NCBI GenBank assembly: GCA_016841265.1
Contig: JAENZL010000002.1
Span: 133,009 to 197,008 of the forward strand
Direction of reading: 5' to 3'
From: Methanobacteriota archaeon
GTDB lineage: Archaea > Halobacteriota > Methanosarcinia > Methanosarcinales > Methanosarcinaceae
Length of the DNA: 64,000 nucleotides
Shown here: piece after piece, positions 5,860-61,954 of the stretch
Numbering within the stretch: position 1 is the stretch's first letter
How the letters are laid out: each line of letters begins with the position of its first letter
The notes under the pieces: model-generated
The model's input: only the letters and a program-made list of their open reading frames with translations
The model's database searches: none
What the model was told of the DNA's origin: nothing
Translations under genes and position numbers: made by a program

Positions 5860-7368
5860 ATGAAGATACTCTGCGGCTACAACGTTAACATCGATTCGGT
5901 GTACAGGATGGGCGGGGCCGAGCTTTCCGAACTGCTGGAGTCCTTCGAAAGCTCCGAGATCCTGGAAAAAATAGATTCGCCGCCTGGCAGGATTGATTCG
6001 AAATCCGATTTTGCGGCAGGTCTTGCCTACTGCATGAAAAACGGGTGTGGGGCTGAATGGCTGGTGTCCAATCCTTCGGTATTCGACTTCCTGAAAGGTC
6101 ACTATTTCGAAAAGTCCCTGGTGAGGATGGGGGGTAATGCCGGGATCATGACCAACACTCTCTCCGGACTCGGGGCTTCACTGGTTATCCCGAATGTTGC
6201 TGTTCCTTCAAAGACCCAGCTCTCTTTGTTTTCCAGGAAAAATGTGTATTTCCCCTGTAACTCTTCAGCGAAGGGTCCGGAAGAGGCTGAAGTCAAGAAT
6301 CAAGTTGACAAGAATCAAGTTGACAAGAATCAAGTTGACAAGAATCAAGTTGACAGGATTAAAGTTGACAAGAATCAAGTTGATACCTCTGCCCCTGAGC
6401 AGGACCCTATCCACTTCGTCTTTGATTTTTCGGAAGGTGAGAGCTTTTCCATTTACGGGAAGCAGTTCACAGTCCCCAGGGAAAACCGTTTCATAGCGAC
6501 CTGTGACCAGCTTAACTTCAGGCTTTTCATCAATCCTGACTTTGATGCCTACGCCCTGCAGCATGCCGGGGAGATGGACGGGGCTTTGATTTCGGGGTTC
6601 CACCTCCTGCTCGAGGAGTATCCCGATGGGGGCAGCTACCTGGAAATTGTTGAACAGGCCCTTTCCCGCGTCCTGGCCTGGAAAGCCAGGAATGAAAGGC
6701 TCAGGGTTCACCTGGAGCTCGGGCATTTTGCTAACCGGAACCTTGCCTGCACTGTTTTTTCAAAGTTCGCGTCAATAGTTGACAGTTTGGGAATGAACGA
6801 GGATGAACTTGCAAGTTTCTACGAGCTTCACGGAATCCCGGTCGAAGAGCTTCTCCGGATGAACGCGGAAGCTGTGGGAAAAGCCGCTTCCTGTCTGGCT
6901 TCTCTTCACAGGCTGCAAAAACTTGTTGTCCATACGAGGGAGTTCGTACTGGCTGCGGTCAGATGGGACGATACCGGGGCTTCTGCCTGCGGCTGCCCGG
7001 AAAGGCCTGCACTTATCAGAAGGCCTTTTTATTCCCGGAAGGTTGAAATCGAAATCGAAGCCCTGGAGTTCGGGGTCAAATGTGCAGGCACATATGCAGC
7101 TACGGGCAGGCTGGACGGACGGGACTTTGTGGAAATGGAAGCCCCGGAACTTCAGGAAAGTGAACCCGGAAGGAAAGAGGTGGGGCGCTTCCTTGAAGCC
7201 TTCGGAGGAGAAGCTTTCGGAAATGGGGCTTTTGCCTTCAGGGGTGGCTATATGCTGTGCATGCTTCCCACACTGCTTTCGAAATCCCCCGTGACCACCG
7301 TGGGGCTGGGCGATACGCTCACGGCAGGGACTTTTTTAAGGAGGCTCGAGCTGGATGTACAGGCTTAA
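5860..7368 (+). CDS. Second ADP-dependent phosphofructokinase/glucokinase family protein
   Basis: A paralogue of the preceding kinase, 502 residues. Seen: YNVNIDSV at the N-terminus, MGGNAGIMTN, HLELGHFANR, and GLGDTLTAG with Asp near residue 485. The GXGD catalytic motif is therefore kept, while surrounding residues differ from the first copy. Residues about 147-175 are a run of NQVDK pentapeptides encoded by a 15-bp tandem repeat, placed between the MGGNAG segment and the FDFSEG segment, probably a surface loop. The 3' end overlaps the start of the glycosylase gene by 14 bp, implying coupled translation. Substrate unknown; it could be a diverged glucokinase or phosphofructokinase. Confidence 0.85.
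   Translation: MKILCGYNVNIDSVYRMGGAELSELLESFESSEILEKIDSPPGRIDSKSDFAAGLAYCMKNGCGAEWLVSNPSVFDFLKGHYFEKSLVRMGGNAGIMTNTLSGLGASLVIPNVAVPSKTQLSLFSRKNVYFPCNSSAKGPEEAEVKNQVDKNQVDKNQVDKNQVDRIKVDKNQVDTSAPEQDPIHFVFDFSEGESFSIYGKQFTVPRENRFIATCDQLNFRLFINPDFDAYALQHAGEMDGALISGFHLLLEEYPDGGSYLEIVEQALSRVLAWKARNERLRVHLELGHFANRNLACTVFSKFASIVDSLGMNEDELASFYELHGIPVEELLRMNAEAVGKAASCLASLHRLQKLVVHTREFVLAAVRWDDTGASACGCPERPALIRRPFYSRKVEIEIEALEFGVKCAGTYAATGRLDGRDFVEMEAPELQESEPGRKEVGRFLEAFGGEAFGNGAFAFRGGYMLCMLPTLLSKSPVTTVGLGDTLTAGTFLRRLELDVQA
6299..6385 (+). repeat. 15-bp in-frame coding repeat
   Basis: Unit AATCAAGTTGACAAG repeated about six times inside the second ADP-dependent kinase, encoding NQVDK. One copy is altered to RIKVD. 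Because the unit is a multiple of three, copy-number change keeps the frame. Confidence 0.95.
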
Positions 7369-25768: not shown

Positions 25769-26550
25769 GGATCATCCCAAAAATAGTTCTTTTTTGATTG
25801 TAATTTTTTGTTTAACAGTGTAATGTGGATGAGAACCGGATTTTTCCCCGATTTTTCCGGATTGAGCGGTTCTGGTTTTGTTTGCTCCCTATATTAGATT
25901 CTCCTTTTATTTCAAGGATGCCCGTCATCATAAGATGCCGCCTCAGAAACCTGATATTTTTCTGATGTAGCTCCGTTTATACCTCATTCCGAATAGTTAA
26001 TTATGCCTTATTTTTTCCGGGCGTTGTCTGTCAACATAAGGTTGCCTGCAGTAAAGTTTCGTGCCAATATTGGTTGCCTGCAGATTCAGTTTCGTGCCAG
26101 CATATGTTGGCTGACGATCTCAATTTACTTTCTTTTTCTCCTGACCTTTTCTCCACCCATTTTATAATGTATAGGTTATATTTCTCCTATGTCCTCTATT
26201 TATTAAATAAGTTTACCCTCTTTTCTATTTTCTCCGGTAGGGTTTATGCATTTACAGGTTTCGCAGTATAAAATTTACCGGAATAATAATTTAGAATCAC
26301 CGGAATAAATATCGGGAATTACCGGAATAATAATTTAGAATCACCGGAATAAATATTTGGAATTACCGGAATAATAATTTAGAATCACCGGAATAAGGCT
26401 CATAATTGCCGGAATAAATATTTGGAATTACTGGACTAAATATTCGGAATTACTGGACTAAATATTCGGAATCACCGGTATCAGGATCAGGAATCCATTA
26501 TATAATCCCCTTACAATTCATCATATACGCAAATCCAGGAAATTGAGAGC
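25769..26550. repeat. 782-bp gap with tandem repeats between cdc48 and nadE
   Basis: Divergent intergenic region. From about 26274 to 26480 a unit near ACCGGAATAATAATTTAGA is repeated, with a higher-order period near 40 bp because alternating copies read AATAAATAT. Later copies drift to ACTGGACTAAATATTCGG. At 26038-26100 a separate pair of copies of GGTTGCCTGCAG followed by TTTCGTGCCA occurs. No ORF is convincing. The promoters of cdc48 (minus) and nadE (plus) must lie at the two ends; TTATATAATCC at about 26499 is the nadE TATA candidate. Confidence 0.75.
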
Positions 26551-27321
26551 ATGGACCTTGAAAAAGCGCAGAACATCATTGTTGATTTTATCCGGGAAAA
26601 AGTAGACAAAGCCGGAGTTTCCGGGGCAGTTGTAGGCATCAGTGGGGGCATAGACTCCGCCCTTACCGCAACCCTTACGGTAAAGGCCCTCGGGGCTGAT
26701 AAGGTGCTGGGAATTCACATGCCCGAAGCCGGGCTGACCTCCGAATCGGACAGTGACGATGCAAAAGCCCTTGCGGACTGGCTCGGGATCGAGTACAGGA
26801 CAATTGACATATCGGGCATTGTCTCGGCTTTTATGGATTCTGTCCCTGAAAGTGAATCTGCGGACCGGCTCTCCAGGGGCAACCTGAAAGCAAGGGTAAG
26901 AATGTCCCTGCTCTATTTCCATGCAAACTGTCTGAACCTCATGGTCATGGGAACCGGGAATAAAACCGAGATTTTCCTTGGCTACTACACGAAGTACGGG
27001 GACGGAGGTGTTGATATCGAGCCCATAGGGTACCTGTACAAAACCGAAGTCTGGGAGCTTTCCCGCAAGCTCGGGGTCCCCGAGCCCATTATAAGCAAAA
27101 AACCCTCCGCAGGCCTCTGGGCAGGACAGACCGATGAGGCCGAACTCGGGATGTCCTACGGGATCGTGGACAGGGTCCTCGTGATGCTGGAAGAAAAGCA
27201 GAGTCCTGAAAGAATTGAAGAGGTCCTTTCCATCTCGGAAGAGCAGTTGGAGTCAGTCCTCAGGCGTATGCAGAGCAATGAACATAAGAGGAATGTCCCT
27301 CCGATTCCTGAATTTTCCTGA
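26551..27321 (+). CDS. nadE: NAD+ synthetase (ammonia-dependent)
   Basis: Last step of NAD synthesis: amidates nicotinic acid adenine dinucleotide with ATP and ammonia. Seen: the P-loop SGGIDSALT at residues 31-39, GTGNKTEIFLGYYTKYGDGG, and KPSAGLWAGQTDEAELG. Length 256 and absence of a glutaminase domain place it in the ammonia-using short form. Start ATG at 26551, preceded by GAAATTGAGAGC, a weak ribosome binding site. It converges with tiaS, with 94 bp between. Confidence 0.95.
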   Translation: MDLEKAQNIIVDFIREKVDKAGVSGAVVGISGGIDSALTATLTVKALGADKVLGIHMPEAGLTSESDSDDAKALADWLGIEYRTIDISGIVSAFMDSVPESESADRLSRGNLKARVRMSLLYFHANCLNLMVMGTGNKTEIFLGYYTKYGDGGVDIEPIGYLYKTEVWELSRKLGVPEPIISKKPSAGLWAGQTDEAELGMSYGIVDRVLVMLEEKQSPERIEEVLSISEEQLESVLRRMQSNEHKRNVPPIPEFS

Positions 27322-27415
27322 ATTTTCCTTGAATATTCCTTGAATATTTCCGTGAACATTACTCTGGGTCCTTATAGTGAACAGGGGAGATTTCTTCCCC
27401 GGTCGCAACTTTTCT

Positions 27416-28702
27416 TTAACGTGAAGGAAATATTCTGCAGTCAGAGCGTTTTTCCCTTACAAGGGGTTTTGCAAGGTGTCTCCTGGCACAGGGAGGGACT
27501 TCGTATAGGCCGGGTTCAAGGACCCTTTCTATTTCGCAATTGACTTTTGAAGGGGCCTGAGTCTTGCATTTCCTGCAGCGGAACCCCTGTCCTTGCCCTG
27601 CTGACTTCATGTGTTTCCCACAGGTGGGGCATTTCGGGTTTTCTTCCGTGTAGAGGGGGGCAAGTTCTTTGATTTCGATTTTTTCTATGTTCAGGGTCCG
27701 GGAGTTCACGCTCCCGAAAAGCACGACCCTGTCCCCGGGAAGCAGTTCCCTTACAAGCGCCCGGAAGTTCTTTGTCGGTTCGAAGGCCGCACAGTCAAGT
27801 TCGGCTCCCGCTTTGTCCCGGAGAGGGAAGATTACGTGCCCCCCGTGAATTGTTTCCGGAGTTGCGGATACCGTGCCCTCCACCCTGTACGAGTGCATGT
27901 CCCGGATTTCCGCAATGCTCCCCACAGGCAGGATATGCATGTCAGTGCCCTGGTTTGTCCTGTACACTGCAAAGCGTTCGGCGGGCTCAGCCCTGACAAT
28001 GGAGGCGGCTTTTGTGACCGTTTCAGGGCTTTTCCCTCTTATCCCGAAGAGGACAGGGTCCGGGGAGTGCGGCACGCATACCACAAGCCCGTTTGTGTGG
28101 TCCAGGGTGTCCCAGGTCCCCGGATATGTCTGCCTGTCGGCTTCTGCCAGACTTTCCTTTTCCACGGAGCGGGGGGTCCCCCACTTTTCCCGCTGCCTGT
28201 AAGCCAGGTGTTCATAGGTGTGGTCCCAGTCTTCCCGGTTTAGCATGGCCCCGCAGGCTGCAAGGGCGCCGATGAGCCCTCTCCCGTTCTTGAAGCTTTT
28301 TGAGGGGATCCCGAGTTCCAAGATCAGGTTTTTTGCTTCTTCGATTGTGATTACGTCCCTGACTGCTTTTTCCAGAAAGGCCCGGAGGACGGGTTTCAGA
28401 CGTTTCCCTTCGCTATCCGGGATGAAAACAGCTCCCGGATTTGTCTTTTCACATTCAAACCGGGCAAATTCTTCGATTCTGGAAATTACGCGGTCCATAA
28501 CTTTCTCAGGGTAGCAGGTCTCCAGCCTGAGGGCTACGGCTGCGTTTCCCCGGGTCTTGTGGGGGATGGTGGGGTTCAAGCGGACGAGAAGCGGAGGTTT
28601 TTCTACTTCCCCGAAGGCCTGCAGTTCTTCGAGCAGCAGGGCTCCCAGGTAAGTGGTGCACATCCCTTCATTTGAGTCCGTGTCGTCAATTCCGATAATC
28701 AT
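27416..28702 (-). CDS. tiaS: tRNA(Ile2) 2-agmatinylcytidine synthetase
   Basis: Modifies C34 of the CAU-anticodon tRNA(Ile2) to agmatidine so that it reads AUA; essential in archaea. Seen: N-terminal MIIGIDDTDSNEGMCTTYLG, the catalytic kinase-like region with NGRGLIGALAACGAML, an OB-fold-like segment (GDRVVLFGSVNSRTLNIEKIEI), and a C-terminal zinc ribbon CPTCGKHMKSAG followed by CRKCKT. Length 428 is typical. The DNA around the start codon is repeated in tandem upstream, so several decoy ATG-ATT-ATC-GG starts precede the true one. Confidence 0.95.
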   Translation of the reverse strand: MIIGIDDTDSNEGMCTTYLGALLLEELQAFGEVEKPPLLVRLNPTIPHKTRGNAAVALRLETCYPEKVMDRVISRIEEFARFECEKTNPGAVFIPDSEGKRLKPVLRAFLEKAVRDVITIEEAKNLILELGIPSKSFKNGRGLIGALAACGAMLNREDWDHTYEHLAYRQREKWGTPRSVEKESLAEADRQTYPGTWDTLDHTNGLVVCVPHSPDPVLFGIRGKSPETVTKAASIVRAEPAERFAVYRTNQGTDMHILPVGSIAEIRDMHSYRVEGTVSATPETIHGGHVIFPLRDKAGAELDCAAFEPTKNFRALVRELLPGDRVVLFGSVNSRTLNIEKIEIKELAPLYTEENPKCPTCGKHMKSAGQGQGFRCRKCKTQAPSKVNCEIERVLEPGLYEVPPCARRHLAKPLVREKRSDCRIFPSR

Positions 28703-28795
28703 TTTTCCCGAACTCCGATAATCATTTTTTCCTAACTCCGATAATCATTTTTCTGAATTCCGATAATCATTTTTCTGAATTCCGATAATCATTTT
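28692..28795 (-). repeat. 22-23-bp tandem repeat of the tiaS start region
   Basis: Copies begin at 28692, 28715, 28738, 28760 and 28782. On the minus strand each reads a purine-rich GAAAAATGATTATCGG, that is an A-rich leader, ATG and the next codons of tiaS (Met-Ile-Ile-Gly). The copy at 28692 is the real gene start; the other four lie upstream. Unit lengths of 22 and 23 are not multiples of three, so the decoy starts fall in different frames. Confidence 0.93.
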
Positions 28796-28988
28796 TCTGA
28801 ATTTCCATTTTTCCAAATTTTTTCCTGGGGTTCAGGTCCCTTTTTCCGACTCTCCAGGCCCTCCCGGGCCTTCCGGCAATTTCCTGGCGGAGGGGGGTCT
28901 GGTTCTCTTCTTTTCGATTTTACGGTATAAACATTATTCTCAATATAGAAATATATATATAGATGTTCAAACAGAATCATCTATTGCA
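28703..28988. promoter_or_regulatory. Divergent promoter region of tiaS and the HTH regulator
   Basis: Next to the tiaS repeat lies a C/T-rich block (28800-28910). The HTH gene side has AATATATATATAG at about 28948-28960, only about 30 bases before its ATG, so that transcript is nearly leaderless. No Shine-Dalgarno is seen before 28989, which agrees. Confidence 0.55.
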
Positions 28989-29972
28989 ATGACAAAAGAA
29001 GTTCTCATACATCAAATTATTGATGTATTGTCCCATGCGGGTTTTGTAGTTTCCGAACGCTGCAATATCCGGCCGCGAAGTTTTGACATTGCTGCAAGGA
29101 AGGATAAAACTCTCTTACTCTGTAAAGTTTTATTTAACATTGACGGCCTGAACGAGGCAACTGCCCGGGAAATGAAGTACCTGGCAGACTATCTGGGAGG
29201 ATCGGCTATAGTCGTGGGGGCTAAGACCAGGGATCAGATGCTTGAGGACAGCGTTGTATATATGCGCTACGACGTCCTCTCCCTGAGTGTCCAGACGCTC
29301 TTCGATTATTTTATCGAAAACATCCCTCCTCTGGTTTCCGCAGCTCCAGGGGGGCTTTACGTCTCCATTGACGGGTATATCCTGAAAAAAGCCCGTACGG
29401 ATATTTCAATGTCTCTCGGGTCTCTTGCTTCCATGGTGGGTGTCTCAAGGCGGACCATCAGCAAATACGAAGAGGAAGGTATGGACGCTTCCATTGACGT
29501 GGTGCTCCAGCTGGAAGATATCTTCGGGATTGAGCTAGCCCTGCCTATAGATATCCTGAAACCTCTGGAGGGCAGGAAGTCCAGAAAAGAGCCCAGGTAC
29601 GAAATGGAAGTTCCAGAACAGCCCCCTCAGCCCCATTCATCTCGTCCCGAGGACTCGGTCCTCAATATGATTTCCCTGCTCGGGTACGACATACTTACGA
29701 CATCACAGGCTCCTTTCAAGGCAATTTCAAAGGACAAGTCTTCCACCATCCTTACCGGGGTCAGTGAGTTCAACACCACGGTAATCAAGAGGGCTCATCT
29801 CATGAGCAGCATCTCAAGCGTCACGAAGACCGAGTCAGTTTTCATCATCAATGGGCATGCCAAAATCAAGTCCGTGGAAAACACCGTGCTGATCGAGAAA
29901 AAAGAGCTGGGGAAAATAAGTGATTCGGACGAGCTTTTGACTTTCATAGAAGAGCGTAAGGAAGGGAGTTGA
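28989..29972 (+). CDS. Archaeal HTH-type transcriptional regulator (XRE-like)
   Basis: A conserved archaeal DNA-binding protein of 327 residues, annotated in methanogens as a putative HTH-type regulator. Seen: an N-terminal alpha/beta region (CNIRPRSFDIAARKDKTLLLCKV, shown in part) resembling a nuclease-like fold, a cro/C1-type helix-turn-helix at about 140-190 (SLGSLASMVGVSRRTISKYE), then a C-terminal domain with SKDKSSTILTGVSEF. Its targets are unknown. It is divergent from tiaS. A T-rich tract with a repeated TTTTTTTCTTCATG unit follows the stop. Confidence 0.88.
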   Translation: MTKEVLIHQIIDVLSHAGFVVSERCNIRPRSFDIAARKDKTLLLCKVLFNIDGLNEATAREMKYLADYLGGSAIVVGAKTRDQMLEDSVVYMRYDVLSLSVQTLFDYFIENIPPLVSAAPGGLYVSIDGYILKKARTDISMSLGSLASMVGVSRRTISKYEEEGMDASIDVVLQLEDIFGIELALPIDILKPLEGRKSRKEPRYEMEVPEQPPQPHSSRPEDSVLNMISLLGYDILTTSQAPFKAISKDKSSTILTGVSEFNTTVIKRAHLMSSISSVTKTESVFIINGHAKIKSVENTVLIEKKELGKISDSDELLTFIEERKEGS

Positions 29973-30816: not shown

Positions 30817-31441
30817 GCCGGTGCCTTGAAAGCAATATCCGGAAATCCCATAAATAACGCCCATAAACAGCGCCCATAAACAGCGCCCATAAACAGCGCC
30901 CATAAACAGCGCCCATAAATCGGGTCCCAAAATTCCCTGTCTTAGTTCAGAATGTGAAACAGGCAGACATCAGATCGAAATTGTGTTCAATCAGGAAGGT
31001 GCTGAAAACAGGATCTATTCCTCCCTCAATGTCTTCTTTGATACCATAATGTTATATGTAGTTCAAAATTATAAGTAGTTCAGGTATTTAATGCCTTTAA
31101 TGACCTTAATGCCTGTTCAAAATTCCACATTTCAAAATTTTACGAGAAAAAAACTGTTCAGAGGTTTTTCAGGAAATTCCCTCTTTAGCAATTTACCGTC
31201 AACCAATCTTATATCATCAACAAATTCTATATCATCAACAAGTTCTATATCATCAACAAATTCTATATCAATATCTTCAGCTTCATGTGTTGCAGCCTCA
31301 ATTATCGCAAGCAACCAATTTAACACTCATTTAAATAATTCGTAATTTTAAGTTAACCGCTTAACAGCCATTAAAAAAACCTTGATTTAGAATCGTGCTT
31401 TTGAAAAAATATTAAATGCATGGATTAACCAGGTGACAGTC
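30817..31441. repeat. Gap with two tandem repeats between purN and glyA
   Basis: At 30847-30924 a 13-bp unit CCCATAAACAGCG occurs in six copies. At 31210-31270 an 18-bp unit TATATCATCAACAAATTC occurs three to four times; being a multiple of three it opens spurious frames on both strands. AGGTGA at 31432-31437 is the glyA ribosome binding site. No credible gene; a promoter for glyA is expected around 31380-31425. Confidence 0.8.
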
Positions 31442-41858: not shown

Positions 41859-42264
41859 AAAGTTCTTTTTTCCTGAACTGCAAAAGGCCTTTTCCCGGGA
41901 AAAGGTCTTTTTACCTGGTCTTTTTGCAGCCTTTTTACCATTATTCTCTTATCATTTTCGGTTTTTGATCAGGTTTCGGTGTTCAGGCCAGGCCGGGTTT
42001 CAAGATACAACAGGATAAAAGTGCTTGATAAAGACTTATAAAGCAGGGCAGGCATTTCATGAGCGCTATTAGCCGTTCAGAAACAATTCATGTATACTTA
42101 TAAAGCGGTTCATAAACAGCTCATAAACAGCTCATAAACAGCTCATAAACTTGTAGTCATACACTGTAATATCTCTCAATAATCGTAATATCTCTCAATA
42201 ATCTTAATCATCTCATATAAATCAGGAAACCGTTACATGTAAAACGTTATTTTCGGGGATCATC
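41859..42264. repeat. Gap with 11-bp and 19-bp repeats before ABCE1 gene
   Basis: Besides the terminator, 42110-42150 holds an 11-bp unit TCATAAACAGC in nearly four copies, and 42167-42205 two copies of GTAATATCTCTCAATAATC. CATAAACAGC is also the core of the 13-bp array at 30847. CGGGGATCATC just before the ATG at 42265 is the likely ribosome binding site. Confidence 0.75.
41882..41913 (+). terminator. Strong hairpin terminator
   Basis: AAAAGGCCTTTTCC and its near-perfect inverse GGAAAAGGTCTTTT form a stem of about 14 bp with one mismatch, ending in a T5 run. It lies about 24 bases after the membrane protein stop. Confidence 0.6.
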
Positions 42265-61393: not shown

Positions 61394-61954
61394 GTGTCCT
61401 CACACCCCGGTGCTCCATTATTGCGGATCCGGACGATAAGATCAATGGTCTGTTTTATGGTCTGTTCACAAAGGGTTATGAATTCATTTTTTTGAATTCA
61501 CCTTGTTTTTGTTCTTGTTGTTTGGATTCTTATCGTCCTAATCCACATTGTCGCAGATCTTATCGTTTGTTTACTTACTGTTCGATTTCAAACCAAAAAT
61601 GTACGAATTCTATTTATACCTTATGATTTTGGACGGAATTTGAAATGTGATTCTTTAAAAAATCATTGTTATACAACCGTTTTTCCGGTTTTTTCCTCCC
61701 TGTTTATTCCCTGTTTATTCCCTGTTTATTCCCTGTTTATTCCCTGTTTATTCCCTGTTTATTCCTCGAAATATACCTTCACCTGGAAAAATATGCCCAC
61801 GTTTCCGGCAGAAAAAATGGTTGGAAAAAGAGTGGTCGAAATAAATGGTTGGAAAAAAATAGTGTTTGAAAGAAGCTGGATAGAAAAGAGGTGAATTGAA
61901 AAATAATGATAAAAATGATAGAGAAGAGCCTTTTTTCAGGCTCTAGCTTTTTTC
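61394..61954. promoter_or_regulatory. Promoter region of the marR operon, with operator-like palindromes and an 11-bp repeat
   Basis: On the minus strand GGTATAAATA (61611-61620) is a good TATA box; its plus-strand complement abuts a GAATTC at 61605-61610. Two further GAATTC sites, 61480-61485 and 61494-61499, lie 90-110 bases upstream of the marR start and each sits in a short palindrome (ATGAATTCAT and TGAATTCA). These are operator candidates. At 61698-61763 an 11-bp unit CCCTGTTTATT occurs six times. The stop of MATE copy 2 is at 61955. Confidence 0.6.

Follow-up and report, generated by a model that had tools for sequence, protein, structure and literature searches.

A tandem array of the tiaS translation start in a genus of Methanosarcinaceae, probably a tolerated short satellite

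The stretch of DNA analysed here (64,000 nucleotides; hereafter the window) comes from an archaeon of the family Methanosarcinaceae. On its minus strand, the ORF at 27416..28702 (428 aa) is identified from its domain content as tiaS, which encodes the tRNA(Ile2) agmatidine synthase. The product carries the Pfam domains TiaS_TCKD, TiaS_FLD, and Zn_ribbon_TiaS, with the OB fold just under its cut-off, and matches the NCBIfam model NF040849 (TiaS) with an E-value of 7e-136 and 453 bits, a score below the curated cut-off of 600. The TiaS proteins of Methanosarcinaceae open with MIIGIDDTDS; because this motif begins the protein throughout the family, the start of tiaS is securely placed at the ATG at 28702, which lies in the last copy of the array described below. 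TiaS has been described as essential in Haloferax volcanii (PMC5178350). A gene for an HTH transcriptional regulator of the PRK04140 family (28989..29972, plus strand) is oriented divergently from tiaS. Between the two genes, a TATA-like stretch (28934..28962, no strand assigned), which is kept in relatives, is presumed to be the core promoter. If tiaS is transcribed from this stretch, then the array would lie inside its 5' leader and would be transcribed through.

At the start of tiaS, TRF delimits a tandem array on the minus strand (28688..28803; period 22, unit of 22-23 bp, 5.2 copies, 91% matches, score 179), the last copy of which is the gene's own start. On this strand the copies read AAAAATGATTATCGGA(A/G)TT.. 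and contain six ATGs in total, at 0, -23, -46, -68, and -90 relative to the tiaS ATG and at -106 in a truncated copy; from -90 through 0, the spacings are 22, 22, 23, and 23. The four upstream copies match the 15-mer ATGATTATCGGAATT at 15, 15, 14, and 14 of 15 positions, whereas shuffling the intergenic region 10,000 times produced a match of at least 14/15 only once; a chance origin of the copies is excluded. The preliminary description of this DNA had correctly reported an array with a 22-23 bp unit and four full upstream decoys, but had missed the further partial copy at -106. Similarly, the copied part had been given as Met-Ile-Ile-Gly; these first four codons are included, but the copying reaches codon 5 (Met-Ile-Ile-Gly-Ile).

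The upstream starts open minigenes on the minus strand that encode peptides of 8-15 aa. The truncated copy (ATG -106; 28767..28808) encodes MEIQKNDYRNSEK and stops at a TGA that shares bases with the decoy 2 ATG. Decoy 1 (ATG -90; 28745..28792) encodes MIIGIQKNDYRNSEK, with a TGA overlapping the decoy 3 ATG, while decoy 2 (ATG -68; 28732..28770), with the peptide MIIGIQKNDYRS, ends at a TAG at -32. Decoy 3 (ATG -46; 28722..28748) encodes MIIGVRKK, with a TGA that overlaps the ATG of decoy 4, and decoy 4 (ATG -23; 28699..28725) encodes MIIGVREK, with a TGA (28701-28699) that overlaps the tiaS ATG as ATGA. The decoy peptides therefore do end quickly, as had been proposed; that most of them terminate on a later decoy start or on the tiaS start had gone unmentioned. 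They do so because the start reads ATG-ATT, which places ATGA in each full copy, and because successive copies lie 22 or 23 bp apart; by computation, a perfect endless array of the unit is closed in all three frames. This stop/start geometry thus follows from the gene-start sequence itself, and no selection is needed to produce it. The upstream decoys had also been assigned to frames other than that of tiaS, which does not hold for the -90 decoy: it is in the tiaS frame, with a TGA at -45 between the two. An N-terminal extension of TiaS through the array is ruled out by a stop in each upstream frame.

Within the genus, four genomes representing four species were compared (G000, that of the window, and G001, G002, and G003), and the array is present at tiaS in all four. 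Including the gene's own start, the copies number about 5, 5, and 10, plus a decayed 5, and matches to the pattern at tiaS number nine in G001, five in G000, four in G003, and two in G002. The comparison of relatives that had been suggested in the preliminary description thus reveals a copy number that varies between congeneric species, from about 5 to 10. The decoys of G003 lie at -91, -68, -46, and -23. In G001, a truncated copy accompanies eight full decoys, and the distal block has been homogenised (ATCAGA replaces ATCGGA); variation is concentrated in the distal units. G000, G001, and G003 all retain the same two proximal units without change, including the ATGs and the ATGA overlaps. The array of G002 has decayed: the ATG is gone from two units and the last spacing is 22. 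As a result, the last decoy of G002 (at -22, last unit 22 bp) lacks the ATGA overlap that the other three genomes show at their -46 and -23 decoys, and runs to +14; in this species a different ATG, at -53, opens a frame that by coincidence terminates on the start of tiaS. The unit sequence occurs at tiaS and nowhere else in G000, and is likewise confined to this gene in G001 and G003. A dispersed repeat family was considered and ruled out, as the unit is found only at tiaS save for two single near-matches elsewhere in G002.

In 23 genomes of the sister group (Methanosarcina-type) recovered by the family search, the array is absent and each genome has one tiaS start, with a leader that is typically CGGAAAA-ATG. 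The array unit corresponds to positions -7..+15 of this single-copy leader (..CGGAAAA-ATGATCATCGGAATT), which is kept in Methanosarcina relatives. Since the array is found in all four genomes of the genus and the sister group has a single start, the simplest explanation of the unit is that positions -7..+15 were duplicated in the genus ancestor. In another Methanosarcina, the MAG Chersky.3_35, 19 nt of the tiaS start have been duplicated independently (L042:1684-1702), giving a decoy of 12 aa. In the rest of the family, nothing comparable was found in the 20 tiaS starts that were recognised by pattern, out of 40 further regions. A weak likeness upstream of tiaS in Methanosalsum (L051) was not clearly above chance (shuffle fraction 0.07).

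Methanosarcina genomes are rich in short-unit satellites (Subirana and Messeguer, 2019; PMC6749651). With a unit of 22 nt and 5.2 copies, the tiaS array falls within the limits of satellites of this type (unit of 10-200 nt, at least four copies). Background counts were made on sampled stretches, namely the window and G001 (864 kb), with ORF starts called mechanically. These stretches contain 275 arrays of at least 2.8 copies, of which 175 are intergenic and a few are CRISPR arrays; as in Methanosarcina, many unrelated arrays are spread across the genome, and the tiaS unit is itself single-locus. Among 592 ORFs, an upstream copy of the start region was flagged at 11 places, which were then sorted by eye. 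Once CRISPR, repeats within genes, doubtful starts, and single matches had been set aside, tiaS alone remained as a convincing multiplied start, counted twice (G000 and G001). A downstream copy of the stop region was flagged in 9 of the 592 ORFs, most of them clear and nadE included. Array growth is thus common across gene ends but rare across gene starts, a bias that would be expected if start copies were more often harmful.

In the window, the stop of the neighbouring gene nadE (26551-27321) is repeated downstream in an 11-bp array (TTCCTTGAATT; 27305-27356), a mirror image of the tiaS case. Several genes of G001 also have tandem repeats of the stop region downstream (L088:2486-2570, L082:745-819, L077:11379-11440, L086:17446-17516, and L094:6085-6128), which suggests that slippage over gene ends is common in the genus. 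The same genome contains a near-perfect 17-bp array of six copies (AGTAATGTCCGTAATAA; L100:4283-4386) that ends on the doubtful start of a HIT/GalT-like gene (L100:4372). This candidate for a second multiplied start was set aside: a later ATG (MSEIRKHYF), after a GAGG-like motif, is the likelier start, and the family matches, which begin at residue 106 or later, leave the start unsettled. Elsewhere in the window, the arrays at 30847-30919, 42110-42150, and 61697-61765 have in common a ATAAACAG-like core (CCCATAAACAGCG, TCATAAACAGC, and the complement of TCCCTGTTTAT) and perhaps form a related satellite family. A 204-bp array with a 22/44-bp unit (TTACCGGAATAAATATTTGGAA; 26275-26478) lies between a CDC48-type ATPase gene and nadE, and a 15-bp in-frame repeat of six copies (6294-6383) lies within a 502-aa ORF (5860-7368).

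Taken together, the tiaS array is best explained, with a probability of roughly 75%, as a short satellite that was born of slippage, terminates itself, and is tolerated. In the ancestor of the genus, a 22-bp stretch at the tiaS start (the leader CGGAAAA, the ATG, and four codons) would have been duplicated in tandem; subsequent slippage would then have gained, lost, and homogenised copies, chiefly at the gene-distal end. The gene-nearest copy would have stayed the real start because it is the only one joined to the coding sequence. It is proposed that the array is tolerated because it is self-terminating, with ATGA in every full copy and a unit that is not a multiple of three: in this genome, a ribosome starting on a decoy would meet a stop within about 15 codons, and no extended TiaS would be made. 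Both slippage as the process and the near-neutrality of the array are inferred from sequence, and the array is odd but probably harmless to the gene. Slippage had already been put forward in the preliminary description, and this reading is now well supported by the match of the unit to the leader still unduplicated in Methanosarcina, by the differences in copy number, and by the abundance of arrays. Three observations count against the satellite explanation, however. The retention of an array at tiaS is unusual, since no other convincing multiplied start occurs among the 592 ORFs; the proximal units are unchanged in three species; and the tiaS start was duplicated independently in L042.

G000, G001, and G003 share the same 46 nt immediately ahead of tiaS, while their fourfold sites differ by 12-16%. 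Although striking against the fourfold sites, this conservation failed as proof of function when set against the leaders of neighbouring genes: in a comparison of 42 genes with G001, 46/46 upstream bases are conserved in four, of which tiaS is one, and 45/46 in seven more. In its conservation the array is thus no different from an ordinary leader, which gives no grounds for claiming additional constraint on the decoys. Nor does it resemble a conserved regulatory uORF, as the proximal 46 nt are no better kept than other leaders and two decoy ATGs are lost in G002. A structured RNA leader at the array, whether a thermometer or a known riboswitch, is rejected in view of a fold z-score of +1.2 and by the absence of an Rfam match above threshold.

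These results bear on the proposal that the array acts as a translational relay, in which decoy ATGs load ribosomes, which translate minigenes of 8-15 codons and re-initiate at ATGA overlaps up to tiaS, with the copy number tuning the output. In three of the four species, the -46 and -23 decoys do end in overlaps that connect them to the start of tiaS, and a GGAG motif is located about 10 nt before the last decoy and before the tiaS start in all four; furthermore, ATGA termination-reinitiation has been demonstrated in Haloferax volcanii (Huber et al., 2019; PMC6728339), and M. mazei translates ORFs that lie in leaders (PMC11456600). However, ATGA arises automatically from ATG-ATT without selection, G002 has an altered last overlap and lacks two decoy ATGs, the copy number varies about twofold between species, and the proximal conservation equals that of other leaders, while transcription through the array is itself inferred. 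A relay therefore seems unlikely, and its more specific form, in which slippage-tunable, ATGA-coupled minigenes feed tiaS and the number of repeats sets the supply of the AUA-reading enzyme, is more doubtful still. The translational tuning raised in the preliminary description thus found no support: the number of copies ranges from about 5 to 10, decoy ATGs have been lost in one species, and conservation is that of an ordinary leader.

It is also conceivable that the decoys capture ribosomes that then terminate, which would keep TiaS low. Their start contexts are nearly identical to that of the gene and, in this genome, all terminate before or at the gene start, but stops on or near the next start favor re-initiation over ribosome loss and the number of decoys is not conserved, so that such an inhibitory leader is very improbable. 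The lowest probability is given to a role at the DNA level, through protein binding or A-tract bent DNA in the intergenic region that tiaS shares with the divergently oriented regulator gene. A repeat spacing of 22-23 bp, near two helical turns, and the divergent placement of the regulator would fit such a role; against it, relative to the conserved TATA-like stretch the array sits toward tiaS, and Methanosarcina has the same gene pair without the array.

As a probable self-terminating product of slippage, the tiaS array resembles the satellites of Methanosarcina in its unit of less than 30 bp, its four or more copies, its unique sequence, its intergenic position, and its occurrence in Methanosarcinaceae; these satellites have been attributed to replication anomalies (PMC6749651), and the same may be true here. 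Unlike them, its last unit is the translation start of a conserved gene, reported to be essential in Haloferax; a term search of the main text of that study found no mention of start codons. The sharing of bases between a decoy stop and the gene start recalls ATGA termination-reinitiation, but in contrast to the gene pairs of that study (PMC6728339), the upstream units of tiaS are minigenes of 8-15 codons made by duplication, and coupling is here putative. Similarly, about 10% of the small ORFs newly found to be translated by Ribo-seq in M. mazei lie in 5' leaders (PMC11456600). The tiaS decoys are, like these, small ORFs before a longer gene; they differ as tandem copies of the gene's own start, of putative translation. 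Among the titles and abstracts listed by a literature search, there was no report of a start multiplied by tandem repeat or replication slippage in archaea.

More generally, these observations suggest that ordinary slippage can raise a gene start to as many as about ten copies with no sign of harm in the sequence, here at a gene that is reported to be essential in a different archaeon, because units that are out of phase and start with ATGA terminate themselves. With their different decoy numbers, the four species would also form a natural series for measuring how upstream starts and ATGA re-initiation affect an archaeal gene.
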